64,000 bases of DNA from NCBI GenBank assembly GCA_941918925.1, contig OW799234.1, forward strand, positions 79,876,543-79,940,542, given 5' to 3'. The notes beneath the pieces are model-generated. The model was given only the letters and a program-made list of their open reading frames with translations. It did not search any database and was not told the DNA's origin. Source of the stretch: Phyto melanocephala (taxonomy: Eukaryota > Arthropoda > Insecta > Diptera > Rhinophoridae). Of this stretch, positions 3,001 to 61,555 are shown in pieces. A program made the translations under genes and the position numbers. Every line of letters begins with the position of its first letter. Position 1 is the first letter of the stretch.

Positions 3001-3905
3001 ATGCATTTTTCATTTTTCAAAAATTTCAGAGAAGTTATAAATGGACAATTCATCACGTCGCTTAGCGGCGCCTGTATAACAAAGGTGGTTGCAAAAATCA
3101 AAAACTTCATATGCCCTAGAAAATATTGGATAAACTTATTTTAAAGAAAATTGTCAAACAATTTCAAAAATGCAATTTTTCAGATTTTTGGTTTGGAAGT
3201 GTTAAAAAAAAAAGAAGACCATTTTTAGGTAATTTGGTACACTTTAAGAAATAGTATCTCGAAAATTAGTTAAAAGAACGTAATCTTTTTGTATCCACCA
3301 CCAATTTTGCATACTTTTATAGCTGAAGCAGAGTATTAGGCTTAATTAGTAAATGTGACAAATGGCCTAAAAAAAAAATGGCCTTCTAAAAATAATATGC
3401 AAACCAATATATATGTTGGGAATGTATATTTTCCTTGATGTTTAAAAAGAACATCAAATAGTGTCATATGCACACTTTTTTGATGGTGTATTTATTCCAT
3501 ATAAAATGTTATACAAATACGTTAACGTATATTATTTTAGTTGTTAAAAATTTTGTAATTATTTGAGATTAATAAGCAATATAATCTGAAAAGTGATAAA
3601 AAGTTTAATTTGAAAACAGTTTTAAGTTTGCATTGTATTTGTAATATTTTTCGTCACTATTTATACTTAATAATCTTCGGTATAATTATTTGAATGTATT
3701 TTTCTCCTCTATATTCCTAATAAAGTTAACATTTTGTCAATATTAAAAAATTTATTTTGTTCTGTAAGAGAAAAAAAATTTCATCCTAAATAACGTCTTT
3801 ATTTTTTAAATTGATTTTGAAAACAAACAGAAATTCAAACAAAATATATTTCCCCAATATCCTAGCAATAACATGTTTAATCACTAGTGTTAAGATTTAA
3901 TAATA
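1..3905. other. AT-rich unique region, no gene seen
   Basis: This stretch is AT-rich, with short homopolymer runs and stop codons in every frame. I found no recognisable protein motif and no RNA gene. At 119-135 there is an ATTCGGC-GCA-GCCGAAT hairpin, which matches the 5' hairpin of the Helentron-like family elsewhere in the window and is probably a tiny relic of it. The longest reading frame (antisense, 1941-2381) has no recognisable composition and is taken as chance. Confidence 0.6.
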
Positions 3906-4487
3906 AAGGGTGGTTAAATTTTAAGGGCCGATATTGAATGTGAACCACACCTAAACGTTAAGTTTTTTTTTACATTTCATTTGACATTTCTCGATTTCAG
4001 ACTAACTCAATTTGAAACATGGAAAGATACACAACCGAGCAACGCTTTAAAGTTATTCAGGCTTATTACGAAAATGGGCGTTCGAATCTAAATTGATTTC
4101 ATGCACTTCGTCCACAATTGGAAGAATTGTGAAAAATTTTAAAATTTCAGCGAACAGGTCTCTATGAAATGTGAAAATATCTATGAATGCCTTCTTAGTT
4201 CGTTGAACGGAAAACATTGTTGTTCTTCGCGATAGTGCGGCGAAATAGCAGTTAACCTCGACTCATCATCTCGCTTAACAATTGAACATCAACATTGTCA
4301 TTAAAAAATTTTAACCATCGGATGGAGGTGTGCCGCCGAAGTCACGGCGGCCATTTGGCCAATATTTTGCTCCATTTATAATTAAATCATACCACTATTA
4401 TAATAGTAAAAAGAAATGATAATAATTTCTTAAACAATTTGTGTTTTATTCAAAATCAACATCGGCCCTTAAAATTTAACCACCCTT
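3906..4487 (+). mobile_element. mariner (DD41D-type) MITE, AAGGGTGG family
   Basis: A 582-bp deletion derivative with inverted ends: AAGGGTGGTTAAATTTTAAG at the left and its complement at the right. It is flanked by TA (3904-3905 and 4488-4489), the target duplication expected for Tc1/mariner. An ATG at 4019 opens a transposase N-terminus reading MERYTTEQRFKVIQAYYENG before a stop. The DNA then jumps to a remnant of the transposase C-terminal tail, so the whole catalytic core is missing. The deletion has the same layout as the MITEs at 13500, 21803 and 62610. It is non-autonomous and any movement would need a transposase supplied by a full-length copy. Confidence 0.88.
4019..4090 (+). pseudogene. 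mariner transposase N-terminal helix-turn-helix remnant
   Basis: The frame starts at an ATG inside the MITE and encodes about 25 residues matching the DNA-binding N-terminus of the family (MERYTTEQRFKVIQAYYENG). A TGA then interrupts it. The same start region is seen, mutated, in the copies at 13500 and 28394. No catalytic residues are present and the fragment is non-functional. Confidence 0.7.
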
Positions 4488-12595: not shown

Positions 12596-13354
12596 AACAA
12601 GTAAAAGCGCTATATTCGGCCGTGCCGAATCTTATATACCCTTCACAACGTGTAGTCATGCAATAACAGTAAATTCACGTATGTATGTTAAAAAAAACAA
12701 AAAAAAAATAAAAAATAAAAAAAAAATTTAAAAAAAAAAATTATTATATACATATATAATATATATAAAACAAAAAAAAAATAAAAAAAAAATTAAAAAA
12801 AAAAAATAAAAAAAAATAATAATAAAAATATATATAATATATTAAATAAAAAATAAAAAAAAAATATAAAAAAAAAATTAAAAAAAAAAATTTTAAAAAA
12901 ATTTAAAAAAAAATTTTTTTGCCTCAGCTGGGATTCGATGCCACGTTTTCTCTAACCAGTATACACGTTTGTATGTATGTATGTTGTTGTTGTAATGTTG
13001 TTTTTATGAAAAGAAAATCGAGGTGGTCGTGGGTTTTTGCTCATATCTCAGTTGTTTATGTACCGATGTTTCTGATTTTCAATACCGATCTACTCCCGAA
13101 TATTTCTGATATTTTAATACCTTAACCGGGTCCAACCTATGTCGGGGGGCTTCAAAAAGTTGATTTCAACATACACACGGACAGACGGTCAGACGGACAG
13201 ACGGACAGACGGACAGACGGTCAGGGCTTAATCGACTCCTCTATTCATAAGCTTTCAGAAAATATATACTTTATGGGGTCGGAAATGAAAATTGTAGAAA
13301 TTTCACACGGAATGACAAACCTATATATACCCTTTTTCACTGTGTGAAGGGTAT
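12596..13354 (+). mobile_element. Helentron-like (DINE-1/mini-me-like) element, subfamily 1, copy ii
   Basis: Complete copy. It starts AACAAGTAAAAGCGC, has a 5' hairpin ATTCGGC-CGT-GCCGAAT at about 12614-12630, then TATACCCTTCACA (12635-12647), whose perfect 13-bp complement TGTGAAGGGTATA lies at the 3' end (13343-13355). The centre is A-rich low-complexity DNA (12690-12915). Then come the GATTCGATGCCACG block, the GAGGTGGTCGTGG block and a GACR microsatellite (13176-13222). Subterminal inverted repeats plus an internal microsatellite are hallmarks of DINE-1/Helentron non-autonomous elements. Almost identical to 31450-32224. Confidence 0.85.
12690..12915. repeat. A/T low-complexity core of copy ii
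   Basis: Runs of A with scattered T and two TATATA clusters. The same pattern with different tract lengths occurs at 31545-31798, in the sister copy. Replication slippage here accounts for much of the length difference between the two copies. Confidence 0.9.
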
Positions 13355-13499
13355 AACAAGTAAGAGCACTATATTCGGCTGTGCCGAATCTTTCATACCC
13401 ACTACCAATTTTGTGTACATTTAAAGCACAATATTTATTATTCTGTTAATCGCTATAGAATAATCTCTTTATAATAAAATATGTATCACTTTCTTTGTA

Positions 13500-14090
13500 G
13501 AGGGTGGTTAAATTTTAAGGGCCCATGTTTAAGGTGAACCACATCTAAACTTCAACTTTTTTCTTGTATTTCATTTGACATTTCTCAATCTCAGACTAAC
13601 TCAATTTGAACCGTGGAAAGATACGCAATCGAGCAACGCTTTTAAATATTAAAGATTTTTATAAAAATGGGCGTTCAAATCAAAATTAATTTTATGCACT
13701 TCGTGATTCTTTTGGTCAACATAATCGTTCGAATTCGACCACAATCGTGAGAATTGTAAAAAATATTTAAATGTCTGCAAAACAGGTCTGCATGAAATGT
13801 GAAAACATCTGTGAATGCCATCTTAGTTCGTTGAATGGGAAACATTGCTGTTTTTCACGATAACGTTGCAAAAGAGCAAGCAACCTCGACTCATCATCGT
13901 GCCCAACAATCGAGCATCAACAGTGTCATTGAAAATTTGGACTATCGGATCGTGGTGTGCCGCATAGGTTGGGGGCCATTTGGCCGATATTTTGTTCCAT
14001 ACATAATTGAAGCATACAAATATAAATGATAATAATTTCATAATAATTTTATTCAAAATCAATATAGTTCCTTAAAATTAAACCACCCAT
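13500..14090 (+). mobile_element. mariner (DD41D-type) MITE inside copy iii
   Basis: A 591-bp element with ends GAGGGTGGTTAAATTTTAAG and TTAAACCACCCAT, flanked by TA at 13498-13499 and 14091-14092. The Helentron at 57833 lacks it and reads TTTG-TA-TAACTTCG at the same point, proving the borders and the TA duplication. The remnant reading frame joins an N-terminal DNA-binding part to the C-terminal tail, with readable pieces such as STHHRAQQSSINSVIENLDY. The catalytic domain is deleted. Confidence 0.92.
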
Positions 14091-14099
14091 TATAACTTC

Positions 14100-15720
14100 G
14101 GTATGCTAGTAAAATGTTTTCGTAAATTTAGTCTTTCAATGAAAGTGGCCGTTAAAATACGCGTGTCAATAAAGTTTCTGCTAATAAACATAACTTAGAT
14201 ATTTCAATATAGTCCTTTAGTATTCCAAAATCTTTATTCATAGAGAATTTAAGAGGAAGAAAGTTAAATTTTAAGGGCCACAGGGTGATTTAAAATATAC
14301 ATTCTCTGCATTTTTCTAAAACGGGAAATTTATTAGTAAGATTTTGATTTTTAAACTTCTATAACATTTTGCTTTTAAAAGATTTTCAAACGAAATAAGT
14401 TTTGTATAATTTTAAAATTTGTTAGCCATTAGTACGTGAAAATAAATTGTTTATAATGTTTAGAGATAACTTTTTTTTACTTAGGTCAAAATTTTCCTAA
14501 ATTCCCATTTTTAATAGAGCATAGCTTCAGGAGAACATAAGCATAAGTTGTTAGCATGCCATCTAGTAGTTGCTAGTAGAGTCATCTATCTTATCATCTT
14601 TATCTTATATTTAGCTACAGTACAAGAAATGGCGCAGTGTAAGATGAATAAATGCTAATATATATGACTAATATATTTTTATAAAATTTTAAGGAAAAAA
14701 GTGTGCGTGGCACATCTATTTTCCGTTATAACGAAGACTTTGACCAAAAAGCCATGTTTGCAAAATTTCAGAATTTGAAATATACACTGTGCGGTATAAA
14801 TTTTCGTACATTTTTATCTATAACTCTTTTCCTAATTTATAGATTTAAGCGATTTTCAGGGAAAAATATTCTTTTGACTCGATAAATATATATTCGAAGT
14901 TTCATGACTACGTTTATGCGTCTGGACACAATTCAAAAGTGAAAGTGGGCGTTATAGTAGGCGTGTCAAAGTTATTTTTGCGAATGAGTACAACTGAGGT
15001 GTTTCAATATAGTCCTTTATTATTCCAAAATCTTTATTAATAGAGAAATTATATGAATTTTAGGTAAAACGTTATATGGGAGGTGGGCGTAAAAGTGGGC
15101 GTGGCATCTTAATTTTTTGGCATAGTAATGAAATTGCCTAGGGGGATAGACGTAGCAAAATTTATCATCATACCTCTAATTTTAGCGGTTTTATGAGCTT
15201 TTAAAATTCATTAACGGTAGATAACGTGAAAAGTGGGCATTATAGTAGGCGTGTCAAAGTTATTTTTGCGAATGAGTACAACTGAGGTGTTTCAATATAG
15301 GCCTTAATATTCCAAAATCTTTATTAATAGAGAAATTATATGAATTTTAGTTAAAACGTTATATGGGAGGTGGGCGTAAAAGTGGGCGTGGCACATTGAT
15401 TTGCCGTTATAAGAAAGCGCGTCACCAAAAAGCAAAGTGTGCAAAATTTCAGAGTCGTACATCCAATTTTGTTGCTTTTGTGACGTTTTTGTTTTTAAAT
15501 ATACCGAAAAATACACTGTGCGGTATAAATTTTCGTACATTTTGATCGATAACTCCTCTCCTAATAGATTTAGACAATTTTCGGGGGAAAATATTTTCTT
15601 TACCCAGGAAATATATATTCGAAGTTTCATGAGTCTACGTTAAGGCGTTTGGACACAATTCCATTTTATTCAATATTCGAAGGACACGATTTTTTCGACC
15701 TACTCTTGCTTTTCGAGCTA
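14100..15720 (+). repeat. tandem units with GGGCGTGG motifs
   Basis: Copies of a unit of roughly 230-290 bp recur inside this Helentron. The units carry AAAGTGGGCGTTATAGTAGG, TTTCAATATAGTCCTTTATT, CAAAATCTTTATTAATAGAG and GGGAGGTGGGCGTAAAAGTG. The first unit (from 14100) is more diverged than the later ones. Unit number differs between copies in the window, which points to unequal exchange or template switching. Confidence 0.8.
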
Positions 15721-16037
15721 TAACTCTCTTCCTAATATTCCGATTAAGCCCATTTTCAATACCAAACAAACCTTGTCTATAAGAAATATTCTGGCAAAAT
15801 TTGAGCCCCTAGCTTTTTCGGTGCGACCTCTATCGTGCTTTCAACAGACGGACAGACGGGCAGGCGGACAGTCGGACGGACGGACGGACGGACGGACGGA
15901 CATAGCTAGATCATCATCAAATCAAACCCTGATTCAGAATATATATACTTTATGGGGTCTAAAATGGATATTTCGATGTGTTACAAACGGAATGACAAAA
16001 TGAATATACCCCCACCATTTTTTTTTATGGCGGGTAT

Positions 16038-16405
16038 AAAAATTACAAAAAAAAAAATATTAAAAATAAGAAAAAAATAATAAAAAAAAACTACAAAAAA
16101 AAAAAATTTTAAAAAAATTTAAAAAAATTTTAAAAAAATTTAAAAAAATTTTTGTAAAAAAATTTTTTAAAAAAATAAAAAAAAAATATAAAAAAAAAAT
16201 AATAAAATATAAATAATATATTAAATAAAATAAAATAAAATTTTTTTGGCTCAGCTGGAATTCGATGCCACATTTATTCTAACGTGTACGTATGCACGTA
16301 TTTTATATGGGATGAATGGTGATACAAACAATTGTTATTGCATGACTACACGTTGTGAAGAGTATATAAGATTCGGCACGGCCGAATATAGCACTGTTAC
16401 TTGTT
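16038..16405 (-). mobile_element. 5' end of a subfamily 1 Helentron, reversed
   Basis: Reading the minus strand from 16405: AACAAGTAACAGTGCTATAT, the ATTCGGCCGTGCCGAAT hairpin, TATACTCTTCACAACGTGTA, CAATTGTTTGTATCACCATT, then the GGCATCGAATTCCAGCTGAG block and an A-rich core (16040-16240). This matches the first 250 bp of the copy at 44770. The 3' half is absent, and the core abuts the 3' end of copy iii. Confidence 0.8.
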
Positions 16406-18793: not shown

Positions 18794-18904
18794 GTCAACC
18801 ATAAACTTTTAATAAAAAGTTGATCTAATGGGATTTACACAGAACTCCCTTAAGTGGATTTATTCGTACTTGACAAATAGAAGACAAAATGCTCGTTTTA
18901 AATA
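18794..18904 (+). pseudogene. Jockey-type non-LTR reverse transcriptase, left part
   Basis: Reads VNHKLLIK, then after one frameshift DLMGFTQNSLKWIYSYLTNR and RQNARFKY. This is the palm-domain stretch that precedes the SGVPQGS motif in Jockey/CR1-type reverse transcriptases. The frame is cut at TA (18903-18904), where a mariner is inserted. It resumes at 23219-23220 with IISRPIAVVSGVPQ, so the two halves read through when the insert is removed. Confidence 0.8.
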
Positions 18905-19333
18905 TATGGTCCGCCAAACAGAAGTTTGTAGTCAATTATGGCCTAGAGGCTTGGTTGCCAAAATTAAAATAAATCATAGCTAGGGAATTTCGATTAGAAT
19001 TAGAAATCATTACGACTAGAGAAATAAAATAATCTAATCATTAGAATTGAATTTTGATAAAAATTTTAGATTACTAATTGATTAGATTAGAAATAATCAA
19101 AAATCTAATCACAATTAGTGACGATTAGCATTTCTAATCAAATCTAATCAAAACTAATCCAAAAAATAATTGATTAGATTTCTTGATTATTTTTGATTAG
19201 ATTTGATTATATCAACTATTTTTAACTATTTTTGTGAAGTAAACATCACCATATACAGCAAACCTAATGGAAGATAATGGGCAAAACTTACATACGTAAC
19301 CATTGCCACATAAAATTTAGGGTTTAAAATTAA

Positions 19334-19489
19334 TTAGGGCGAACTTCCGGTGCTACCCATTCTTTTAGCACTCACTGCCGGCTCGCTCTCCAAAAATATG
19401 TTCCGGATCACCTTCGTCGGTACATAATTTGGATCACATACATCATCGTCTGCGGAGAAGTCTTGGTCTTCGTAAACAATTGGATCCAT
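19334..19489 (-). CDS. 51-residue acidic ORF in the hAT-like element, possibly a spliced exon
   Basis: The ATG at 19489-19487 opens MDPIVYEDQDFSADDDVCDP, followed by NYVPTKVIRNIFLESEPAVS and a stop at 19336-19334. Just upstream is a good acceptor (TTCGATATTTTAG, ending at 19498) and, 122 bp further up, a perfect donor TTATTG|GTAAGT (19619-19614). A short 5' intron is therefore predicted at 19498-19619. The protein is acidic at its N-terminus. I do not recognise the family. Its position in the middle of a hAT-like element suggests the truncated 5' end of a transposase or a captured host exon. Confidence 0.4.
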   Translation of the reverse strand: MDPIVYEDQDFSADDDVCDPNYVPTKVIRNIFLESEPAVSAKRMGSTGSSP

Positions 19490-19497
19490 TACGACAA

Positions 19498-19619
19498 CTA
19501 AAATATCGAAAATAAATTGGAAATTTTTGTTTTACATATAAAGTTTGCATTTTGTTTAAAGTTTCACGACGTCGAACAAACAATAAATAAAAGAAAAAAA
19601 TCCGTGCATTTTTACTTAC
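19498..19619 (-). other. predicted short intron in the hAT-like element
   Basis: Minus-strand donor GTAAGT immediately after ATTATTG, and acceptor TTTTAG nine bases before the ATG of the 51-residue ORF. At 122 bp it is within the usual size of fly short introns. Predicted from consensus signals only. Confidence 0.35.
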
Positions 19620-20499
19620 CAATAATTTTAAACACTTCAATTTGAATAAAACAAAAATTACAATCACAAAACACGTTAAAAATTAACATTAATAATAACA
19701 CAACAACAAAGTGAACCAGCTGTGTTAGGTGTTTAGTTTAAAAACAGGGTGCATGGTATGCAATTTAATGCAATATTCAAAAACTGTTACATTATGTAAA
19801 TATAGCAACAAATGTGATAAATAAATATTTTCTTATCACAAAAATAGTTAAAAATAGTCTAATCAAAAATAATCAAGAAATCTAATCAATTATTTTTATA
19901 CCCGCCACCAAAAAAATGGTGGGGGTATATTCATTTTGTCATTCCGTTTGTAACACATCGAAATATCCATTTTAGACCCCATAAAGTATATATATTCTGA
20001 ATCAGGGTTTGATTTGATGACGATCTAGCTATGTCCGTCCATCTGTCCGTCTGTTGAAAGCACGATAGAGGTCGCACCGAAAAAGCTAGGGGGCTCAAAT
20101 TTTGCCAGAATCTTTCTTATAGACAAGGTTTGTTTGGTTTTGAAAATGGGCTAAATCGGAATATTAGGAAGAGAGTTATAGCTCGAAAAGCAAGAGTAGG
20201 TCGAAAAAACCGTGTCCTTCGAACATCGAATAAAATGGAATTGTGTCCAAACGCCTTAACGTAGACTCATGAAACTTCGAATATATATTTCCTCGGTAAA
20301 GACAATATTTTTCCCCGAAAATTGTCTTAATCTATGCATTACGAGATGAGTTATCGATCAAAATGTACGAAAATTTATACCGCACAGTGTATTTTTCGGT
20401 ATATTTAAAAACAAAAACGTCATAAAAGCAACAAAATTAAATGTACGGCTCTGAAATTTTGCACACTTTGCTTTTTGGTGACACGCTTTTTTGTGACGG

Positions 20500-20900
20500 C
20501 AAATCAATGTGCCACGCCCACTTTTACGCCCACCTCCCATATAACGTTTTAACTAAAATTCATAAAATTTCTCTATTAATAAAGATTTTGGAATAATAAA
20601 GGACTATATTGAAACACCTAAGTTGTACTCATTCGCAAAAATAACTTTGACACGCCTACTATAACGCCCACTTTTCACGTTATCTATTGCCCCCTAGGCA
20701 ATTTCATTACTATGCCAAAAAATTAAGGTGCCACGCCCACTTTTACGCCCACCTCCCATATAACGTTTTACCTAAAATTCATATAATTTCTCTATTAATA
20801 AGGATTTTGGAATAATTAAGGACTATATTGAAACACCTAAGTTGTACTCATTAGCAAAATCAACTTTGACACGCCTACTATAACGCCCACTTTCACTTTT
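20500..20900 (-). repeat. tandem GGGCGTGG-type units in copy B
   Basis: Two adjacent units of about 230 bp each contain TGCCACGCCCACTTTTACGC, CACCTCCCATATAACG and GACACGCCTACTATAACGCC. They match the units of copy iii on the opposite strand and those at 61556-62600. Confidence 0.8.
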
Positions 20901-21802
20901 GAATTGTGTCCAGACGCATAAACGTAGTCATTAAACTTCGAATATATATTTATCGAGTCAAAAGAATATTTTTCCCTGAAAATCGCTTAAATCTATGGAT
21001 TAGGAAAAGAGTTATAGATAAAAATGTACGAAAATTTATACCGCACAGTGTATATTTCAAATTTAAAACGTAATAAAACTGACAAAACTATATGTACGAT
21101 TCTGATATATTGCAAACATGGCTTTTTGGTCAAAGTCTTCGTTATAACGGAAAATAGATGTGCCATGCATACTTTTTTCTTTAAATTTCTATAAAAATAT
21201 ATTAGTCATATATATTAGCATTTATTCATCTTACACTGCGTCATTTATCGTACTGTAGATAAATATAAGATAAAGATGATAAGAAAGATGACTCTACTAG
21301 CAACTACTAGACGGCATGCTAACAACTTATGCTTATGTTCTCCTGAAATTATGCTCTATTAAAAATGGGAATTTAGGAAAATTTTGACTTAAGTAAAAAA
21401 AATTATCTCTAAACATTATAAACAATTTATTTTCATGTACTAATGGCTAACAAATTTTAAAATTATACAAAACTTATTTCGTTTGAAAATCTTTTAAAGG
21501 CAAAATGTTATAGAAGTTTAAAAATCAAAATCTTACTAATAAATTTCCCGTTTTTGAAAAATGCAGAGAATGTATATTTTAAATCACCCTGTGGCCCTTA
21601 AAATTTAACCTTAAATTCACTTTCTTCCTCTTAAATTCATGTAAATTCTCTATGAATAAAGATTTTGGAATACTAAAGGACTATATTGAAATATCTAAGT
21701 TATGTTTATTAGCAGAAACTTTATTGACACGTGTATTTTAACGGCCACTTTCATTGAAAGACTAAATTTAAGAAAACATTTTACTAGCATACCGAAGTTA
21801 TA

Positions 21803-22398
21803 ATGGGTGGTTTTATTTTAAGGGACTATGTTGATTTTGAATGAAATTATTATCATTTATTTTTATAATGATAATATTTGTATGCTTCAATTATGTATGG
21901 AACAAAATATCGGCCAAATGGCCCCCCAACCTAGGCGGCACACCACGATCCAATAGTCCAAACTTTCAATGACACTGTTGATGCTCGATTGTTGGGCACG
22001 ATGATGAGTCGAGGTTGCTTGCTCTTTTGCCACGTTATCGTGAAAAACAGCAATGTTTCCCATTCAACGAACTAAGATGGCATTCACAGATGTTTTCACA
22101 TTTCATACAGACCTGCTTTGCAGACATTTAAATATTTTTTACAATTCTCACGATTGTGGACGAATTCGAACGATTATGTTGACCAAAAGAATCACGAAGT
22201 GCACAAAATGCATTTTGATTTGAACGCCCATTTTTATAAAAATCTTTAATATTTAAAAGCGTTGCTCGATTGCGTATCTTTCCTCGGTTCAAATTGAGTT
22301 AGTCTGAGATTGAGAAATGTCAAATGAAATGCAAGAAAAAAGTTGAAGTTTAGATGTGGTTCACCTTAAACATGGGCCCTTAGAATTTACCCACCCTC
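21803..22398 (-). mobile_element. mariner (DD41D-type) MITE inside copy B
   Basis: 596 bp with ends ATGGGTGG and CCACCCTC, flanked by TA (21801-21802 and 22399-22400). It sits at the same Helentron site as the MITE at 13500-14090, in the same relative orientation. The minus strand carries the DNA-binding start region near 22300 and the short C-terminal tail, with the catalytic region deleted. Confidence 0.9.
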
Positions 22399-22751
22399 TA
22401 CAAAGAAAGTGATACATATTTTATTATAAAGAGATTATTCTATAACGATTAACAAAATAATAAACATTGTGCTTTAAATGTACACAAAATTGGTGGTGGG
22501 TATAAAAGATTCGGCACAGCCGAATATAGTGCTCTTACTTGTTTGGATTAGTTTTGATTAGATTTGATTAGAAATGCTAATCGTCACTAATTGTGATTAG
22601 ATTTTTGATTATTTCTAATCTTATCAATTAGTAATCGTCTAAAATGGCTAACTAATCATAATTAAGCAATTTTTCAGCACAAAAAAAAATTTCTAATCCA
22701 ATTACTAATCATTAGGATTACTAATCATTATTCCCAAGCTATGAAATAAAT

Positions 22752-23106
22752 AAATAAAATAAATGCTATAAAAAAGTGCAGCTTCGGCTGTGTGACACGT
22801 AGCGCCGTCCTGTTTAAACCAAATGTTGCCAATATCCTGCTCTTCACTCCTTGCTTATTTTCGAAGAATAATGGCCCAATTACGCCTCTGGACCAAAATC
22901 CGCACCAAACAGTGACTCGTTTTGGGTATATCGGCTTTTCAATGTGTGCGTGCGGGTTTTCTGTGCCCCAAATGCGACCATTTTGTTTGCTTACATACCC
23001 GCCAAGATTAAAATGAGCTTCATCTGAAAAGATGACTTTTTTTGTAAAATCGGCTAAAGTAATGTCGCAATATTTCCCAGCGTTGTTCAAGTGTATACAC
23101 AACCAT
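22752..23106 (-). pseudogene. mariner transposase, internally deleted
   Basis: MVVYTLEQRWEILRHYF at the N-terminus is joined to ADFTKKVIFSDEAHFNLGGY, the first-Asp region of the DDE_3 catalytic domain. The frame continues GRIWGTENPHAHIEKP and VTVWCGFWSRGVIGPLFFEN, then after a second deletion KQDGATCHTAEAA, which carries the second catalytic Asp. The third-Asp region is missing, so the protein would be inactive. The hAT insertion lies at its 3' side. Confidence 0.82.
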
Positions 23107-23218
23107 ATTCGTTTAGCGGAAGGATAAAGCTAATTATCTGTCGGATCAGACATGAGCTAAGTGTTACCATTCACGAAATAAGCACTAGTTGAAAAAAAAC
23201 GTTAGATGGCGGACCCTT

Positions 23219-24030
23219 TACATTATCTCTAGACCAATAGCTGTTGTTTCTGGTGTTCCGCAATGAAGACGTCTTGGCTGTTTGGCATCTATGGCTGTTT
23301 TCCTAATTATTTAATGATCTACTAAATACTATTTAATTCTCAAAATTTATAATGTTTGCTGGCAAAGTAAAAATATTATTTAGTGAAAATAATTACGCTG
23401 ATCACGCTGGAGCTGAACCCTGAAAAATGCAAATATATGTATGTATGTGTCTCTTCGGTAGATGTTTTATTAACGTGAATTATGTTTTAAGTGCCCCCGA
23501 TCTTGCAATCTTATTAGATGCTAAACTATATTTTTTTCGTCATATCTCTTTAACTGTTAATAAAGCACGTGCAGTCCTTGAATTCATACAACATTGGGCG
23601 AAAGAGTTTACAGATCCATATATAACCACACAACTGTATATTTTTCTTGTCAGGCCTGTTCATGAGTATGGCTTAATAATTTGGGATCCAACTTAAAATG
23701 TTTACAGATTCATAGCATTGAATCTGTGCAAAAACAGTTCCTGTTATTTTGTCTTCGTTGCTAATAGTGGAATTGGTTAAACCTGGCGCCTTATACTAGT
23801 AGACTAGCACTAATAAAGCTGCCAACTTTAAAAAGTCGAAGAACAATGTTAAATCTTACGTTTGTTCTAAATTTAATAAAAGGATGTATATGATCTGCTT
23901 TCCTTATAGCGAATATCTTTCTTAATTTACCATTTTATTCTACATGTCATTTGGTCCGCTATCAGTCAAAGTTTTCAGAACGAATTATGCCAACATCGAT
24001 CCGTTTTTAAAGATTTGTAGCTTTTTTTTT
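23219..24030 (+). pseudogene. Jockey-type non-LTR reverse transcriptase, right part
   Basis: Resumes with IISRPIAVVSGVPQ and a stop at 23265, then loses about 100 residues including the catalytic YADD/FADD block. It continues ELNPEKCKYM and LAILLDAKLYFFRHISLTVN, then KARAVLEFIQHWAKEFTDPY and LVRPVHEYGLIIWDPT, the thumb and C-terminal part of Jockey/CR1-type elements. More diverged text (IESVQKQFLLF, LAPYTSRLALIKLPTLKSRR) carries on to about 24000. Several frameshifts and stops; dead. Confidence 0.82.
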
Positions 24031-24229: not shown

Positions 24230-25215
24230 CTTCAGTAAGATTTGCCATTTCATGATGTAAAGATATACGTGCCAACAACGAGTCAAAATTATTAAAACTT
24301 ACTACCGAAATTCGGACTCAGTGGCCTCAACGTTAACAGCGCTACGTCTAATTTATGGTCGTCATATTCGTCCTACCAGATTAACAATTGAGCGTCTAGT
24401 GGAAAAATTTGAATCCACAGGTACAGTACAAAATGTTCCCGTGCCAGTAAGACAAAGAAGTGCCTGTTGTGTCGAGAATATAGCTGCCTCAGTTGAAGAA
24501 AGACCAAATGTGTCTCTCATACGTCGTTCTCAAGCGTTGGGCATCTCTGTGAAGTCGTCGTGGCGAATTTTGCGAAAGGATCTTAGCCTACATCCTTGCA
24601 AGATCAAATTGACGCAAGAACTGAAGCCGCTTGACCACCAGAAGCGTCGTATGTTCGTGAATTGGGCTGAGCCACAACTTGAAAATGATTCGGATTTTCA
24701 TCGAAAAATCATCTTTAGCGATGAGGCACATGTCTAGTTGAATCGCTTCGTCAATAAGCAAAATATGCGTTATTGGTTAGAATCTACACTTACTCCATGA
24801 GTCATCATTGCGTCCCGAAAAAATTACAGTTTGGTGCAGTTTATGGGCCGGCGGCGTCATTGGGCCGTACTCTTCCGTGATGATCAAACCGGCACGTTAC
24901 TGTGAATGGAAGTCACTACCTTTCAATGGTAACAGAATATTTTTGGCTCCAATTTGATAATATGGACTTAGAAGGTACGTGGTTTCAACAGGACGGCGCA
25001 ACAAGCCACACAGTGAATTGATTGTGACAATTTATTGGAAACCCAGTTTGGAGAACGTGTTATTTCCCGAAATGGTCCAGTCGATTGGCCGCCTCGGACG
25101 TGCGATTTGACGGCGTTAGACTATTTCCTGTGGGGTTACGTCAAGTCTATGGTCTACGCCAACAAGCCAGCGACGATTGATGAACTTCGTACGAATATCG
25201 AACTATGGCCGGTAG
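24230..25215 (+). pseudogene. mariner transposase of DD41D (rosa-like) type, frameshifted
   Basis: The N-terminus appears as QRVKIIKTYYRNSDSV, followed by a second helix-turn-helix region (RPTRLTIERLVEKFESTGTV) and the linker LRKDLSLHPCKIKLTQELKP. Catalytic blocks follow: IIFSDEAHV with the first Asp at about 24720, then FQQDGATSHT with the second Asp at 24992, then CDLTALDYFLWGYV with the third Asp at 25119. The second and third Asp codons are 127 bases apart, i.e. 41 residues between them plus a one-base frameshift, the spacing of DD41D mariners. A stop follows SDEAHV and the C-terminus is cut after DELRTNIE. Terminal repeats were not found. Confidence 0.85.
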
Positions 25216-28393: not shown

Positions 28394-29567
28394 TCAGGGT
28401 GGTTAAATTTTAAGGGCCGATGTTGATTTCGAATACAACATAAATTTTTATTGTAATTTCTTTTCATTACGATGGTATTGGTATTGGTTTGATTGTGTAT
28501 GGGACAAAATATCGAACGAATGGCCGCCGCTGAGGCATAGTTGAGATTCTATGCCATTTATGTTCCGAGTTATCTCATCCATTAGCTCTTGAATTGTTGC
28601 TGGTTTGTTGGCGTTCACCTTTTGTTTCAAATAACCTGTTAAATCGCATGATCTTGGCAGCCAATTGACATCGCCACCACGTGAGATAACACGGCCATTG
28701 AAATTGTCGCCCAAAAGAGCCATTGTGTCATTAGCAAGTGAAGCCGTCCTGTTGAAAACAAATATTGTTCACATCCATCTCACTATAACGAACACCATTC
28801 ACAGTAACTGCCTAATCAGCCTTATTGTGGAAAAAATACGGCCCGATAATGCCGCCTGTCCATAAACCACACCAAACAGTTACTTTTTGTGAGAGCATTG
28901 GTTTTTCGACAATCACTCTTGGATTATCATTTACCCAAATGCGGTAATTCCGCTTATTGAAGAATCCACTGAGGTGAAAATATGCTTAATCACTGAAGAC
29001 GATTTTCTTCGCAAGTTGATCATCCACGGTTGCCATTTCTTGCCACCATTCTGACCATTGACGATGTTTGGAATGGTCAAGAGGCTTTAGTTCTTGAGTC
29101 AGTAGCACCTTGTAAGCATGTAAATGCAAGTCTCTACGCACGATGTTTATCAACGACGAACGGGAGAGGTACAATTGTTGGGCACGATGACTAGTTAAGG
29201 TGGACGGCTCTTCAGCCGCTCTATCGCGAACAGCAGCAATATTTTCTGCAGTGCGAGCTGTACCCGTAAGGACTGGTGTTTTAACATCTCCTACAGATCC
29301 GTTTTGCACGACTTGTTCGATTGTAGGCACATTTGGACGATTAAATTGACCAAAAGAATCACGAAGTGCTTGAAATTAATTCTGATTTGAACGCCCATTT
29401 TCATAATAAGCCTGAATAACTCTAATGCGTTACTCGATTGTGTATCTTCCCATGGTTTAAATTAAGTTAGTCTGAAATTTAGAAATGTCAAATGAAATGC
29501 GAAACAAAAACTTAACATTTAGGTGTGGTTCACATTCAACATCGGCCCTTAAAATTTAACCACCCTT
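28394..29567 (-). mobile_element. near full-length mariner, DD41D-type, AAGGGTGG family
   Basis: 1174 bp with ends CAGGGTGGTTAAATTTTAAG and AAAATTTAACCACCCTT, flanked by TA at 28392-28393 and 29568-29569. It contains a recognisable but dead transposase on the minus strand and is the only nearly complete member of the family in the window. The short MITEs have the same ends and can be derived from it by one internal deletion. It interrupts a Helentron-like copy. Confidence 0.9.
28470..29453 (-). pseudogene. mariner transposase pseudogene (AAGGGTGG family)
   Basis: Starts at an ATG near 29452 with MGRYTIE, then in-frame stops. Blocks in order: VIQAYYENGRSNQN, ENIAAVRDRAAEEPSTLTSH, RRDLHLHAYKVLLTQELKPL, KKIVFSD (first catalytic Asp, then a stop), VTVWCGLWTGGIIGPYFF, TVNGVRYSEMD and QQDG (second Asp, about 28748). 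The third-Asp segment is deleted: CDLT joins GYLKQKVNANKPATIQ directly, so the LDYFLW-like motif is gone. The C-terminus is RRPFVRYFVPYT-like. About five stops or shifts. Inactive on two counts. Confidence 0.88.
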
Positions 29568-29569
29568 TA

Positions 29570-29635
29570 TATACTTCAGGGGGTCGAAAATTAATATTGT
29601 AAAAATTATAAACGAAATAACAGAGCTATACATAC
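29570..29635 (+). mobile_element. Helentron-like element fragment, right part
   Basis: TATACTTCAGGGGGTCGAAA, then TTGTAAAAATTATAAACGAA and ATAACAGAGCTATACA match the subfamily 1 text after the microsatellite (TATACTTTATGGGGTCGG ... GGAATGACAAAG). It continues the fragment at 28040-28393 across the mariner insertion. The 3' hairpin is not recognisable. Confidence 0.55.
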
Positions 29636-46564: not shown

Positions 46565-47618
46565 TAAGGGTTCTACGTAGCAAATTTTATCATCATACCT
46601 CTAATTTTGGCGGTTTTATGAGCTTTTTTCAATATAGCCCTTTATTATTCCAAAATCATTATTAGTAGAGAAATTATATGAATTTTAGGTAAAACGTTAT
46701 ATGAGAGGTGGGCGTAAAAGTGGGCATGGCAACTTAATTTTCAGGCACAGTAATGACATTGCCTAGGGGGATATACGTAGCAAATTTTATCATCATACCT
46801 CTGAATTTGGCGGTTTTATGAGCTTTTAAATTTCATTAACGGTAGATAACGTGAAAAGTGGGCGTTATAGTAGGCGTGTCAAAGTTGATTTTGCGAATGA
46901 GTACAACTTAGGTGTTTCAATATAGTCCTTTATTATTCTAAAATCTTTTTTAATAGAGAAATTATATGAATTTTAGGTAAAACGTTATATGGGAGGTGGG
47001 CGTGGCACATTGATTTTTTGTTACAAAAAAGCATCTCACCAAAAAGCAAAGTGTGCAAAATTTCAGAGTCGTACATCCAATTTTGTTGGTTTTATGACGT
47101 TTTTGTTTTTAAATATACCGAAAAATACACTGTGCGGTATAAATTTTCGTACATTTTGATCAATAACTCCTTTCCTAATGCATAGATTTAGATAATTTTC
47201 GGGTAAGAACATTGTTTTTACTCAGGAAATATATATTCGATGTTTCATGAGTCTACGTTAATGCGTTTGGACACAATTCCATATTATTCGATGTTTGAAG
47301 GACACGGTTTTTTCGACCTACTCTTGCTTTTCGAGCTATAACTCTCTTCCTAATATTCGGATTTTTAATATCAAACAAACCTTGTCTATAAGAAAGATTC
47401 TGGCAAAATTTGAGCCCCCTAGCTTTTTCGGTGCGACCTCTATCATGCTTTCAACAGACGGACAGACGGACAAACGGACGGACATAGCTAGATCGTCATC
47501 AAAACAAACCCTGATTCAGAATATATATACTTTATGGGGTCTAAAATTGATATTTCGATGTGTTACAAACGGAATGACAAAACGAATATACCCCCACCAT
47601 TTTTTTGGTGGCGGGTAT
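46565..47618 (+). mobile_element. Helentron-like element, subfamily 2, 5' truncated
   Basis: Begins inside a tandem unit (CTACGTAGCAAATTTTATCA). Contains partial and complete units with GTGGGCGTAAAAGTGGGC, then AAATACACTGTGCGGTATAA, TTTCGACCTACTCTTGCTTT, GTGCGACCTCTATC, a GACGGACA microsatellite (47457-47486) and the 3' hairpin ACCATTTTTTTGGTGGCGGG ending TATAAAA. The 5' hairpin and MITE are absent. Confidence 0.83.
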
Positions 47619-47619
47619 A

Positions 47620-48300
47620 AAAACACATTTATTCCAAAGAAGCCTTTTCGTTTTAAATATCAAATGCCGTGCAGATAGAAGTAACTATTCAAAGAGAATA
47701 AAATTTAGGACGTATGATGTTTTTAGAAGGACACATGTGTCCCAGCAGAACGTTTCATACCAAATTGAACACAGTTATATTTTTAGTTTGCTATGTTATA
47801 GGACAGAATCCTTCTCGAAACCACACCACTAACAATGATGATCTTCTCATTTATGCAGAAGGCGTCTTATTGATTGCAATTGCAAAATTGCAATTGCAAA
47901 ATCATTTTCCCGTAGAGAAGAGTTAAAAATAAATTTTAATTGCCGAGGCTGTAAAATTATCATTTCTACAGCGAAATTCTAATTTTATTATTAAAGTTTT
48001 ATTGCCGTAATCATACAAAAAATATTATTAATTTATAAATGGCTTATTTTACAGATGCTGTACAGAAATTTATCAAAAAACCCTCTAAAAACATAAAATA
48101 TTTTTTATGAATACAGAAATTAATATTTTTATATTTTTGTTACAATTTCACAAGCAAAATACCAAAAATATTAATTTTTTATTACTTTTTAGTTACGCAC
48201 GGCGGGCTTGGGCGTTGCTACGAGCCTTAATGAATAAAAATGAATTCTGAATTTTAACTGAATATATTAAAAATAATATTTTATTGATTTTTGTTGTAAT
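47620..48300. other. unique region, nothing recognised
   Basis: Overlapping frames at 47605-47926 are translations of the Helentron edge and AT-rich DNA. A TTGCAATTGCAAAATTGCAATTGCAA-type palindromic run lies near 47872-47900. Confidence 0.35.
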
Positions 48301-51306: not shown

Positions 51307-52120
51307 ATGACAGACAGAGTAAGTCCTAAGAGATTAAATTTATTGGAAATTCAAAATATATTAAGTGAATTTGAAAGTGATAAGGAAGAATTAATAATTT
51401 CTGATAACGTATATATTTCGCCACTTGGCGATATGAGATCGGAAGCATCAGATGCTAAGTAAGTGCCCGTATGTAGAAGCTGATGAAAACTCATACGATT
51501 AAAATGACAGCGAAGAAGTGGAATCGAATAGTGAACTTTGGGCTTAAGATGGAACTCATTGGTGTCTTGACCCATTTCCAGAATTTCAGTCAATAAACCG
51601 GAACATTTTACGGCAACGCTGTGGCGCAGTACCTGGTTTGCACATATCTACACCAAAAGATATATTCAAAAGTTTTTTGTTTAGCGAAAGCGAAATGTGC
51701 GATATAATTTTACGTGAAACCAATCAAAAGGGAGTACGATTAACTGAAGAATACAGTAGAAATTTACACAACATGTATCCGAGTTCTAATAAAAAGCCAC
51801 AAAATAAAATCTTAACACCATTTACTAAAAGTGACACATTTTTTGGTTTATTGATTGTTTGTGGCGTTCACAAATCTAATAAGGAACATTTGACTGAGTT
51901 GTGGAAACCTAATCACTTACCTTTTATTGGGGCTGCAATGTCATATGATGGGTTTAAAATGCTTTTACGTTTCATACGATTTGATAACGAAGTTACTCGT
52001 GAGTCACGTGTCGAAAAGCTGATGCAACCCGAGATATTTGGAACATGTTAAATTCCAATTTACGTAAATATTATAAGCCTGCCGAATGTATTACAGTAGA
52101 TGAGCAATTGTATGCATATT
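51307..52120 (+). pseudogene. piggyBac transposase, truncated and frameshifted
   Basis: The ATG at 51307 starts MTDRVSPKRLNLLEIQNILS, an acidic N-terminus with EFESDKEE, broken after MRSEASDAK (stop at about 51460). Through frameshifts it reaches the frame at 51638-52051: TPKDIFKSFLFSESEMCDII, then LTPFTKSDTFFGLLIVCGVH, LTELWKPNHLPFIGAAMSYD and GFKMLLRFIRFDNEVTRESR. These are the start of the DDE_Tnp_1_7 domain. After 52051 another frame continues with a KYYKPAECITVDEQL-like stretch (the first catalytic Asp region, about 52072-52110) before a stop. The rest of the catalytic domain is missing. Confidence 0.85.
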
Positions 52121-52331: not shown

Positions 52332-55326
52332 CAGAAGTCTCAAATTTTATTGTTTTAAAAAAAAGACATAGTAATATATGGCAGTCTACTTTAAACTGGC
52401 TAAAATATTATAAAAATAATAGTTAAAATAGAATAACTAATAATTTTTAAGTATTGCCTAACCATTCAGTCTGTAACAATTTATACACTGAGCAAAAAAA
52501 GTACTGTCTTTCTCTTATGCTAATTATTATTATATGGCTTTATTGCTTTATTTAAAATATTAACATTTAAGACATTTAAGTGAAGGATTTGAAAATTAGC
52601 TTTGTAAGCGGTAAATACGTTTTGATCTCTTTTATCTCTCATTCTGCCATTAAATATATAAATGTCACATAGTCAGACATACACACGCAAGCAAATGTTA
52701 TGTACATAAGAATTTAAATATTACGTGAAATTTATTTATGTTCTTGTTTTTTAACAAAATTATTTGGAGCACAAGTAGCAAAAAATACGTGCAAACAGCC
52801 ACCAAAAAAAAAAAAAAACATAAAAGTTTTCCCATTATTTATTATCATTTACGGTATGAACAGCAAAAAGGTGCTTTGAGTACTTATGGCTTCTTTACGT
52901 TTCTTTTTCTTTTTTTTTTTTTTTTCATTCAATACCATTTTCTAAAAGGAGCATAAAAACCGAAATAATATAAACCAAATCCGCCAATTATCACAAGTAA
53001 AAAATATTTTCAACTGTTTTTTTTTTCAACAGTAATCTTTGATATAAATGTACCACGAACAAACCAAAACACAGACATCTGAACAAAAAATTGTAATATT
53101 TCGTAACGAAGAGAAAAAAGTGTGTGATTTTTTTAATATATAAATTTTCTAAACAGAGCACACATATACAAACTGTTAAAATGTTTAAAGCATTTGAAAA
53201 TTAAGCGGAAATTAAGGTAACAGTGTGAATAGTATTTTGGAATGCTCAAACATTCAAGATTTTTTGATGGAGAATTTTTCGAAAAGAATAAAAAAAAAAT
53301 TTCTTTAACTAAGCCAAAATAGAGAAGCATTTTTCTCTCCTCTATTTCTTAAAAAATTTTGTTAAAATTCATATTAGCAATGACAGGCTTTTAAAGTTGC
53401 TACTGACGTGGAGAGAGAACAACAATTTATATATTTTAATAAAAAGTTCTCTTTCATAAGGCGTAAGCTGAATCAGCGCTTGACAAATTCCTTAGATAGA
53501 TACTTGAGACTTTGATTTTTTTTTATTTTTTTTTTATTAATACTCCAGTGTTACTTATTGTTTTAAAATATTAAATTGTTTTTATGTGAAAATTAAAAGT
53601 TTCAGACCGTAGACATGGCAAATGCTCAAAATAAATTGTTTTTGTATTCATTCTGCTTGTGCCTTATTAAGCTCAATAAGCTTTCCTCACAATATAAGTG
53701 AAAGCACGTCATCATTAGTTTAAGGTCATGCCAAGGCAAATTAAGTTTATTTAGATTTTAGATATTTAATATAGACATAAAAACTAATTTAAGTCCATAC
53801 GAAAATACGGCTGTCAATGAACAACATTTTCTACTGAGAAAAAGAACAAGCCAGCTACATAAGTAGAAGCGTATCAAGGTTTGATGGTATATAGTGCAAA
53901 AACTTTTGCACTATATAAAAAGTAAAAAAATACAACGATTATAGAAAAACTGAGATGGTGAACAGAAACATTTTTCACACTGTTTAACCGCATGAATATC
54001 TCAATAGTTTGTGTATTCGTTTCACTGCATCCGTATAAGTTCAAAAGTGTTTAAGTAAGTATTTGTAGATCTAAATGACTGTACGAGTACTGAATATGAT
54101 AATCATTGGAAGTGAAACTTCAAACACCCATACATATGTACATATATAGACATAAATATAAAAGAAAACGAAAGTAGTAACTAAGAACGTAAAGCCAGTC
54201 ACAAGCTATGTATGAATTTTATAAGATGTTTTAGCAAAAAAAAAAAATTACAATCTCCTAGCAAAAAGAAATACCAGTAAAACGAAATGTATATTATATT
54301 TTATATTTTATTTACGTATTATTTTCTTCTTTTTTTTGTGCTTTATTTTTTTTCCTGCTCTACATACAAAACACACCCCGAATCTTTAGGGTTCAGGACC
54401 TAAATGACACACTTATTTAAAATTCAAGGAAATGCTAAACAAATTTATTCACTACAATCTTAAAAAAATAAAAAACAACGAGAAACAATAAAAATAAAAA
54501 GTATAAAAATCACTTGATACGAAATTAATACAAATGTCACACATTAATGTATGATGCAAATAAATAACAACAAACCAAAAGTATATGCATGTATGAGCCA
54601 CAATACAAATACGAATACATTTAACTGTAACAAGTACAAATGATTTATTCACAACATGACTTATATTTGCATACAGATAACGACGCTATAAACAATAGAG
54701 TTTTCTTCTATTTAAAAATTTTGTTAGAGAAAATCTCATTAAACGTACCATTTTAATTTGTTTATATCGTATACATACGTTACAGACAGGGTATTGTGAC
54801 TTTGTGCTGTTGTTTGCAAGTATAAATCTAACAGTCATTCTCTGTTTATTCATAAATAACTGTAGATCGCGATATAATGAAAGTTGAGACACTTGGCTTA
54901 GTCGAAGGATTTGCCCATGATTTTAAGCACATGCCTGCCACACAAATATTCTTCCTGCATTATTTTGTATGGTTAAACAATTATCTAAATAATGGTAATT
55001 CAATACATTTAGGTACACCAGTATCAACTGACAACATTCGACATAATTTTTCCCACATAAGCTATATTACGTGTAGTACATAAATTTCCTTAAATTTCTT
55101 ATTCAATTGCTACCAAATCTTGGCTAATAATATGGGTGTCTTAAACATAACGTTGCCACAAAGATGTGTCATTTTACCTTCACAATAAAGAAACTAACAA
55201 AACGGACATCATAAAATCTAGATAACTTTACACAAAAGTAGATTTTTGTATATAATTTATATAGACAATAAATTTTTATACAGCTCCATAGTAAATGGTA
55301 TTCTTAACATACCTTTCTGACTTTTT
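52332..55326. other. unique AT-rich region
   Basis: Several short frames of 60-70 codons, all with AT-driven composition and no motif. A-tracts at 52805-52819 and T-tracts at 52911-52925. No repeat ends were recognised. Confidence 0.4.
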
Positions 55327-57832: not shown

Positions 57833-59570
57833 AACAAGTAAGAGCACTATATTCAGCTGTGCCGAATCTATCACCACCACTTTTCCGTTCTTTTGTAGCT
57901 AGGGCTTTTTTCCCGAAAATGTTTGTCTCCCGGAAACGCGAGATTTATTTTTTAATATCCCGGGATCCCGCAGCAAAACAAATAAAAAGTAAATTTGTTT
58001 TTAATTAAAAAACTTTTTACTAAAAAGTATAAAATAGTTTATAATGTAAAAAAAACTTAATAAAGAAACTTGAATTTTAAATATAAATTGTGTAAAAATA
58101 TTTTTTATTGAAAAATATATTATTCTCCAGACACGAGATCAAATATGAGGACAAAAAAAAATACAGGTACTTCAGCTATGAGATCAAAAATGAAACCATC
58201 AGAATTCAATTTCAATATAAACAATATAAAAATCTGCTTTCCAATCGTAGCCACATTTTTTATTTTCCGGGATCCCGAAAAATAATTCTGGGAAATCGGG
58301 AAGATGAAATAACTCAAATTGCCGGAAAATAACCCAATTTATAGCACAAAATGTATTTGTTTGTTATTAACAGTAATCGCTATGCAATAATCTCTTTATA
58401 CTAAAATATGTATCACTTTCTTTGTATAACTTCGATATGCTAGTAAAATGTTTTCGTAAATTAAGTCTTTCAATGAAAGTGGGCGTTAAAGTAGGCGTGT
58501 TGAAGTTGTTTCTACTAATAAATGCAACCTAGATGTTTTCACTGCTGTCCTTTATTATTCCGAAATTTTTATTCATATAGAAATTATATGAATTTGATAT
58601 AAACCGTTATATGGCAGGTAGGCGTCAAATTAGGCGTGTCACCTAAATTTTCTGGCATAATAATAACATTGACTAAAAAGAAATATGTAGCAAATTTCAT
58701 CATCATACCTCCAATTTTGTCGGTTTTATGAGCTTTTAAATTTCATTAACAGTAGATAACGTGAAAAGTGGTCGTAATAGTAGGCATGTCGAAGTTGTTG
58801 TAGCCTTTCAATGAAAGTTGGCATTAAAGACGGCATGTTGAAGTTGTTTCTACTAATGAATGCAACTTAGATGTTTCAATATAGTCCTTTATTATTCTAA
58901 AATCTTTATTCGTAGAGAAATTATATGAATTTAAGGTAAGACGTTATATGGGAGGTGGGCGTAAAAGTAGGCGTGTCACATTTATTTCCCGTTAGAACAG
59001 AGCGCTTGACCAAAAAACCATGTGTGCGAAATTTCAGAGTCGTACATCCAATTTTGTTGCTTTTATGACGTTTTTGTTTTTAAATATACCGAAAAATGCA
59101 CTGTGCGGTAAAAATTTTCGTACATTTTGATCGATAACTCCTTTCCTAATTCATAGATTTAGGTAATTTTCAAGGAAAAATATTGTTTTATATATATTCG
59201 AAGTTTCATAAGTCTACGTTAATGCGTTTGGACACAATACCATTTTATTCGATGTTCGAACGACACGGTTTTTTCGACCTACTCTTGATTTACGAGCTAT
59301 AACTCTCTTCTTAATATTCCGATTTAGCCCATTTTCAATACCAAACAAACCTTGTCTATAAGAAAGATTCTTGAGCCTTCTAGCTTTTTCGGTGCGATCT
59401 CTATCGTGCTTTCAACAGACGGATAGACGGACGGACATAGCTAGATCATCATAAAATCAAATCCCGATTCAGAATATATATACTTTATGGGGTCTAAAAT
59501 GGATATTTCGATGTGTTACAAACGGAATGACAAAATAAATATAGCCCCACCATTTTTTGGTGGCGGGTAT
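57833..59570 (+). mobile_element. Helentron-like element, subfamily 2, without the MITE
   Basis: 5' AACAAGTAAGAGCACTATAT with a slightly mutated hairpin (ATTCAGC-TGT-GCCGAAT). A 438-bp hAT-like insertion (57900-58337) follows, then GTAATCGCTATGCAATAATC and ATCACTTTCTTTGTATAACT, i.e. the unoccupied MITE target at 58425-58426. Three or so tandem units follow (58490-59000), then GCACTGTGCGGTAAAAATTT, a short GACGGACGG block (59418-59433) and the 3' hairpin ending GGCGGGTATAAAAA. Confidence 0.87.
57900..58337. mobile_element. hAT-like MITE inside the Helentron
   Basis: Ends TAGGGCTTTTTTCCCG and, reverse-complemented, TTGGGTTATTTTCCGG form an imperfect inverted repeat. Inside them are matching TATCCCGGGATCCCG and CCGGGATCCCGAAAAAT segments. 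Flanks TTTGTAGC (57892-57899) and TTTATAGC (58338-58345) look like an 8-bp duplication with one mutation, as for hAT. Other Helentron copies lack this insert. The frame at 58108-58332 inside it has no recognised domain. Confidence 0.6.
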
Positions 59571-59574
59571 AAAA

Positions 59575-60935
59575 AGTAAAGTTATGCTCATGTTTTATAT
59601 TTGGTGAAATCGCAAGGTTTCCTTAATGTTATAGTGCCATGATTTTAACAGTTTTTAAAAATGTTAAAATATTTTGCCATTAACTCTACAATTCTTTTCA
59701 TTCATTTTGAAATGTTTGAAAAATTAAGATAATATGACAACACGACACTTAGGGATACGCTTGTGAATACAGCAGTTAACGAAGTTGCTTCTACATAATC
59801 AGCAAATACAAAAACTCCATAATGGTAGCACAATTGTTTTCCCATTTATTTAGTTTTTTTTAGTGTTTTACAAAATCAGTTTATACAAACATATTATAGC
59901 CACTAATCTGGTAATTTCAGATTGTATTTTAAATTCACGAACCAAACTGTAAACTAGTCTCGAAACGTAAAACTTGTCTCTTAAGTTTTAATCCTTATAC
60001 GTTAAGTGTATGAACTAAACGCTACAAAATAAGACTATAAATCTGTGTCAAATATATAAATTTTAAATACAATTTTAAAACACCGACATTCTCCATACAT
60101 ACATCCATATGTACATATGTATGTTGATTCAGACATTTCACACATTGTTATTATGTAAAATAGAAAAAGGAATACATACCTGGAATTAGCATAGGTATAC
60201 ATACATATGTATGCCATTTTGCTTGCCTTTACATTCATACATACATACATTCATGACACACTAAAAATAACTAAAAAGGGAAAAGAGTGGCAATAACACA
60301 ATAACATCAAAAAGAACAACAGCTACATAAAAACGAAGAACTCATTTAAAATTAACATCATCAGCAACAACAATCATAAGAAAATACATACACACAACAT
60401 GAACTAAAAAGAACAACAACAATAGCGTAAGATTTTTTAGTGGTAGTAACTTTCAAACATGTTTTCCATTTTTCCTAAACATATGCTATAAAAAAAAAAT
60501 TATATACTTGAGTTTTTTGTGTGCTATGAAGGAGTTGCGTAAGTAGTTGGAGTAGTTCTAAGAGTAGCACAACAAGTCATTTTTAATGTTAACAGGAACA
60601 TGGTTTTTATGTCTTTTTTTTCCTATGTTTTGAACTACAATAAGACGTGAGTGATAACATTTTCTTTTACCTACCTACTGCCATGCAAACATAGTGGTAT
60701 TCTTACATACACATGGATACATTCTTTGTGATGACGCTTCATAAACCATTTTATGTAAATAAATTGTTGCTGAATCATCGTAATCATCATCAACAACCAG
60801 CTGGTTATTATAAGCAATATGAATATTAGGGTTGTCTAAGTTTTGGCAAATTTGAAATATGAGTAAATAATTTTTGCGGTAATTAATTTAATTTATTTTG
60901 TCAATTTTTTGTTATATGTTTGATGCTTTTGTTTT
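59575..60935. other. unique AT-rich region
   Basis: ATGT/ACAT palindromic clusters at 60105-60125 and 60195-60215, CATA repeats at 60235-60252. No gene evidence. Confidence 0.4.
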
Positions 60936-61555
60936 TATACCCGCCACCAAAAAAATGGTGGGGGTATATTCATTTTGTCATTCCGTTTGTAACACATCGA
61001 GATATCCATTTTAGACCCCATAAAGTATATATATTCTGAATCAGGGTTTGATTTGATGACGATCTAGCTATGTCCGTCCGTCTGTCCGTCTGTCCGTCTG
61101 TTGAAAGCACGATAGAGGTCGCACCGAAAAAGCTAGGATGCTCAAATTTTGCCAGAATCTTTCTCATAGACAAGGTTTGTTTGGTATTGAAAATGGGCTA
61201 TATCGGAATATTAGGAAGTGAGTTATAGCTCGGAATGCAAGAGTAGGTCGAAAAAACCGTGTCCTACGAACATCGAATAAAATGGTATTGTGTCCAAACG
61301 GATTAACGTACAGTCATGAAACTTCGAATATATATTTCACGAGCCAAAACAATATTTCTCACCAAAAATTACCTAAATCTAATCATTAGGAAAGGAGTTA
61401 TCGATCAAAATGTACGAAAATTTATACCGCACAGTGTATTTTTCGGTATATTTAAAAACAAAAACGTCATAAAAGCAACAAAATTGGATGTACGACTCTG
61501 AAATTTTGCACACTTTGCTTTTTGATGAGACGCTTTTTTGACACGGAAAATCAAT

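Follow-up and report, generated by a model that had tools for sequence, protein, structure and literature searches.

Nested transposons are known in flies, and as a nest the locus described here is ordinary. Among described systems, the non-autonomous Helentrons termed DINE-1/HINE are characterised, in the part of their description available, by subterminal inverted repeats (subTIRs), an inverted repeat, a microsatellite stretch, central repeats, a 3′ palindrome and a TT target (PMC4067079). For the blow fly Calliphora vicina, the accessible portion of the report gives 11 nested repeats out of 322 (PMC3630058).

Here we analysed a window of 64,000 nucleotides, meaning the whole stretch of DNA under study, from the fly Phyto melanocephala, where five layers of transposable elements lie one inside another (Table 1). 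This physical arrangement and its junctions were anticipated by the original prediction and are present in the sequence, with nearly all of the predicted junction positions exact; both containment and junctions can be read directly. The same prediction counted five events, and here our analysis departs from it: the locus records four, namely one reverse transcriptase (RT) copy and three insertions, because the innermost MITE is a passenger of the HINE and occupies the same position in sibling HINE copies.

The window is transposon-rich, with a GC content of 30%, and holds several mariner-like ORFs, one piggyBac-like ORF and several HINE copies; it returned no Rfam match at the gathering threshold and no tRNA. 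The mariner-like ORF at 24321-24737 carries the Pfam helix-turn-helix domain PF16087, and a piggyBac-like transposase fragment (PF13843) was noted at 51638-52051.

Table 1. Features of the nested locus, from the outermost layer inwards.
Feature	Position	Strand	Basis
RT left piece, decayed, Jockey-like	18796..18904	+	Translation and rejoined frame; in frame with right piece from 18816
RT right piece (IISRPIAVVSGVPQ; ISLTVNKARAVLEFIQHWAKEF...EYGLIIWDP)	23219..23890	+	Three-frame translations; frameshifted, with stops; right limit approximate
Mariner-like element with internal deletion and minus-strand transposase remnant	18905..23218	-	Ends sharing GGTCCGCCA; related proteins; window relatives
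TA target, left copy	18903..18904	.	
TA target, right copy	23219..23220	.	
Palindromic hAT-like element, ~1.12 kb without insert	18975..22743	.	Inverted repeats I1, I3; excision match; relative of central ORF
AAATAAAT, left copy of 8-bp target duplication	18967..18974	.	
AAATAAAT, right copy of 8-bp target duplication	22744..22751	.	
Inner arms of palindromic element	19069-19201 and 19858-19897 + 22544-22636		
Short acidic ORF (MDPIVYEDQDFSADDD...), centre of hAT-like element	19331..19489	-	Relative P0121
HINE, DINE-1-like	19898..22543	+	Excision test; sibling copies; features per PMC4067079
HINE 5′ subTIR and inverted repeat	about 19898-19930		
HINE GTCY stretch (microsatellite)	at 20033		
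HINE 3′ subTIR	about 22490-22504		
HINE 3′ palindrome	about 22510-22524		
Mariner-derived MITE in HINE family	21803..22398	.	TA at 21801-21802 and 22399-22400; same position in siblings

A decayed reverse transcriptase split by a mariner

The outermost layer is likely the RT of a LINE, with a left piece that translates as KVDLMGFTQNSLKWIYSYLTNRRQNARFKY. It had been proposed that a mariner at 18905-23218 splits this RT at a TA and that removing it restores the reading frame, and both points hold. A TA stands on each side next to inverted ends, and once 18905-23218 is cut out together with one TA, RFKY reads on into IISRPIAVVSGVPQ and then meets a stop. With the single TA kept, the rejoined RT reads KVDLMGFTQNSLKWIYSYLTNRRQNARFKYIISRPIAVVSGVPQ, whereas a cut at the neighbouring TA (18905-18906) gives YTLSLDQ and then a stop. 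Because the restored stretch runs for only 14 codons before the stop, the rejoined frame is by itself modest evidence.

What we take to be more RT-like text continues further right in other frames, and the RT copy is therefore frameshifted and dead. The name Jockey is tentative and comes from Jockey-like motifs. In Pfam, searched up to E 10, no reverse transcriptase family was matched: the left piece (30 aa) and the rejoined piece (43 aa) gave nothing, and the sole match of the 89-aa right piece was DUF1722, below the cut-off of that family. Protein searches with the RT and with the ORF of the palindromic element covered proteins of 0.55-1.75 times the query length, a range that full-length RTs and transposases fall outside, and within these limits the RT piece had no relative among 3 candidates. 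The RT pieces gave 2 pattern matches and no confirmed relative in viral_contigs, and a literature search for the motif SYLTNR returned one paper, on plant chaperones.

The mariner's own sequence consists of 18905-18974 and 22752-23218. Its ends, TATGGTCCGCCA and AAGGGTCCGCCA, adjoin the TAs and have in common the core GGTCCGCCA, which occurs once per strand in the window; placing the left end at 18905 gives ends of equal length as well as the open RT frame. In a protein search with the transposase piece, 469 of 471 candidates were related; among the 120 best related proteins listed, none had a Pfam domain and one was named ("hypothetical protein"). The piece is also 47-59% identical to three other mariner-like loci of the window, including the ORF at 24321-24737. 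Pfam had no match for the piece or for 8 of its relatives, PDB had none for the piece up to E 1, and 4 pattern matches of the mariner pieces in viral_contigs yielded no confirmed relative.

A palindromic element within the mariner

The mariner is in turn split by a palindromic element whose termini, CATAGCTaGGGAAT and CATAGCTtGGGAAT, match at 13 of 14 bases and form CATAGCTTGGGAAT ends. A gap of 14 bases lies just inside the matching terminal stretch, and the outer arms agree less well, at 63 of 92 aligned positions. As a measure of chance for the flanking copies of AAATAAAT, two random AT-only 8-mers of the window match with p = 0.0065, and random positions in the window gave 218 8-mer matches in 2,000,000; the true chance is probably higher, because the sequence flanking on the right is a repeat of AAAT type. 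Since AAATAAAT is of low complexity and its right flank is of this type, the ends and arms outweigh the duplication as evidence.

No transposase was found in the element, which holds only a short ORF. The one relative found for this central ORF is P0121, which occurs on 12 public contigs and is 90% identical over the query. Read through its stop, the ORF matches P0121 at 74 of 87 residues, and the similarity extends as far as the arm, showing that the centre of the palindromic element exists elsewhere. P0121 had no Pfam match, and its one PDB match, at E 0.48, was taken as chance.

A hAT-like element at 18975-22743, flanked by AAATAAAT, had been predicted; its junctions and the 8-bp duplication stand, and the name hAT is retained as a fit by structure. 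A duplication of exactly 8 bp with CA..TG ends fits hAT, and this combination speaks against placing the middle element among other palindromic DNA transposons, either foldback/Mutator-like (Tetris) or of the P superfamily (Galileo), a reading that we consider quite possible, if short of probable. Its long inverted arms are foldback-like, and, as far as the available text of the two descriptions goes, Tetris has duplications of 8-10 bp and no known transposase (PMC4079207), and Galileo has 7-bp duplications, with 8 bp in three copies (PMC4168063). The duplication here is, however, unlike the GTANTAC target of Galileo.

A HINE in one arm of the palindromic element

When 19898-22543 is excised, the right arm is restored as an inverted copy of the left arm that differs at 1 of 133 positions, and the uninterrupted left arm is thus a built-in empty site for the HINE. 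With the right breakpoint shifted by 1-6 bases, 53-76 mismatches appear, in a comparison made without gaps, where any shift loses register. In a gapped breakpoint scan, three T-shifted cuts tie at a score of 137 and the next scores 135, which places the ends of the HINE with an uncertainty of a few Ts. The insertion lies in a T run, between Ts, as judged from the empty site in the left arm. A Helentron at 19897-22543 had been predicted in this arm: the insertion is upheld by the restored arm, and the type is revised to a non-autonomous DINE-1/HINE. Within 19898-22543 there is no ORF of at least 100 aa, and the Rep/helicase coding capacity of an autonomous Helentron was not found.

At its 5′ end the HINE carries the subterminal inverted repeat ATACCCGCCACC, with the counterpart GGTGGTGGGTATA near the 3′ end, and the 3′ palindrome TTCGGCACAGCCGAA stands about 20 bases before the end; such stem patterns occur at 10 places in the window. 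Searches with the 3′ end patterns gave no matches in viral_contigs or in genome_contigs, and a search for copies outside the window gave no match in phages. Within the window, seven HINE-like copies with the 5′ region were compared, six of them with an intact 5′ end. All six have exactly five Ts before them, following a non-T base (19893-19897, 16038-16042, 60932-60936, 47619-47623, 59571-59575 and 55322-55326), a pattern suggesting a T run that is part of the HINE or arises on insertion. Next to the copy at 13357-16037 (copy A), where the 3′ flank starts with TATACCC, another 3′ end of HINE type was observed at 12597-13356; these are possibly two HINEs end to end.

In a region this rich in repeats one might think of an assembly chimera of unrelated repeats, but this would not be expected to yield a frame closed by one TA, matching ends flanked by an 8-bp duplication, and an arm match with 1 mismatch in 133, and we give this explanation next to no credence.

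A mariner MITE as passenger of the HINE

The MITE had been predicted at 21803-22398 with flanking TA, and TA is indeed present on both sides; in addition, the sibling HINE at 59570 (minus strand) cleanly lacks the MITE and shows an empty, single TA at 58425-58426. Among the six copies with an intact 5′ end, three carry a full MITE at one common position (19898, plus; 16037, minus; 60937, plus). The copy at 55327 (plus; copy D) has the left junction and part of the MITE, and the copy at 47618 (minus) ends short of the site. The outer flanks of the HINE copies differ, and the copies are therefore separate insertions.

The ends of the MITE recur in a longer, mariner-like element (28396-29570) with transposase-like ORFs, and these shared ends, together with the empty TA of the sibling, identify it as a mariner derivative. 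One stretch of the longer element is 52% identical to the mariner piece that splits the RT; the left TA of this longer element is not intact, and two of its ORFs had no Pfam match.

If the MITE had inserted independently into the HINE here, the locus would record five separate events. The TAs on both sides and a free MITE copy at 3905-4487 are in keeping with this, as is the left junction TT, not TA, in copy D and in the copy at 60937 (plus; copy B). Against it, two further full copies and one partial copy have the MITE at the same point, and the three full carried MITEs end in CCACCCTC-TA, whereas the free MITE copies seen read CCACCCTTTA. With the site in common, independent insertion is refuted, short of repeated mariner hits on one and the same TA, and we hold it to be highly improbable.

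Compared with the HINE here, copy B is 92.5% identical at the 5′ end of the HINE and 96.5% at the 3′ end, and the MITE is 86.7% identical; identity likewise falls to 88% in the HINE sequence immediately to the left of the MITE. The TT junctions and the lower MITE identity in copy B count against a wholly simple history of the MITE. On balance we lean towards the view that a mariner MITE has become a lasting passenger of a HINE lineage, which spreads both together as a composite through rolling-circle transposition. If so, a cut-and-paste element would be multiplied by the machinery of another class. No such HINE-MITE composite appeared among the titles and abstract openings listed for these topics, by which we do not claim its absence from print.

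Order and age of the insertions

The predicted order of RT, mariner, hAT-like element and Helentron, from oldest to youngest, is supported, as are the predicted junction positions and the restored reading frame. In the history we propose, a non-LTR retrotransposon copy, now decayed, would have come earliest, and a mariner would have entered a TA within its reverse transcriptase. The palindromic, hAT-like element would then have inserted into the mariner with an 8-bp duplication, and the HINE into a T run of one of its arms, moved in trans by Helentron rolling-circle machinery. The MITE would have entered an ancestral HINE at a TA earlier and come to the locus with it. The rolling-circle step and the transposases that would have acted are what we infer from this arrangement. 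That nested insertion, with the MITE arriving inside the HINE, explains the locus as a whole we regard as very probable.

If the inner arms were identical at insertion, their 1 mismatch in 133 positions would make the palindromic element a recent arrival and the HINE insertion a still more recent one, although arm conversion could also produce such similarity. The sibling HINEs of the window differ from the HINE here by about 7-14%.

The value of the nest is methodological. A palindromic host serves as its own empty site, and no second genome was needed to place the boundaries of the Helentron within a few Ts. The MITE, as a passenger, illustrates that counting nested layers overstates the number of insertions where sibling copies are left out of account.

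Comparison with known systems

A close likeness is to DINE-1/HINE, with which, on the available text of the description, the element here shares subTIRs near both ends, the inverted repeat after the 5′ subTIR, the microsatellite, the central repeats, the 3′ palindrome, insertion at T-rich or TT sites and the lack of coding capacity (PMC4067079). It differs in carrying a mariner MITE as passenger, and it has not been matched to a named family. In Calliphora vicina, DINE-like Helitrons likewise lie inside DNA elements and old LINEs serve as landing sites, but the portion of that report at hand describes no stack of such depth (PMC3630058). Tetris and the Galileo foldbacks resemble the palindromic element, by description and not by sequence, in their long palindromic arms and non-autonomous copies, as given in the extracts of both accounts (PMC4079207, PMC4168063), whereas the arms here are only about 0.27 kb. 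Hel-2, as outlined in the accessible part of its description, is similarly a non-autonomous Helitron with another transposon nested in its centre, yet it has lepidopteran-type ends and its inner element is TE-LNCR, in place of the mariner MITE found here (PMC4344730).
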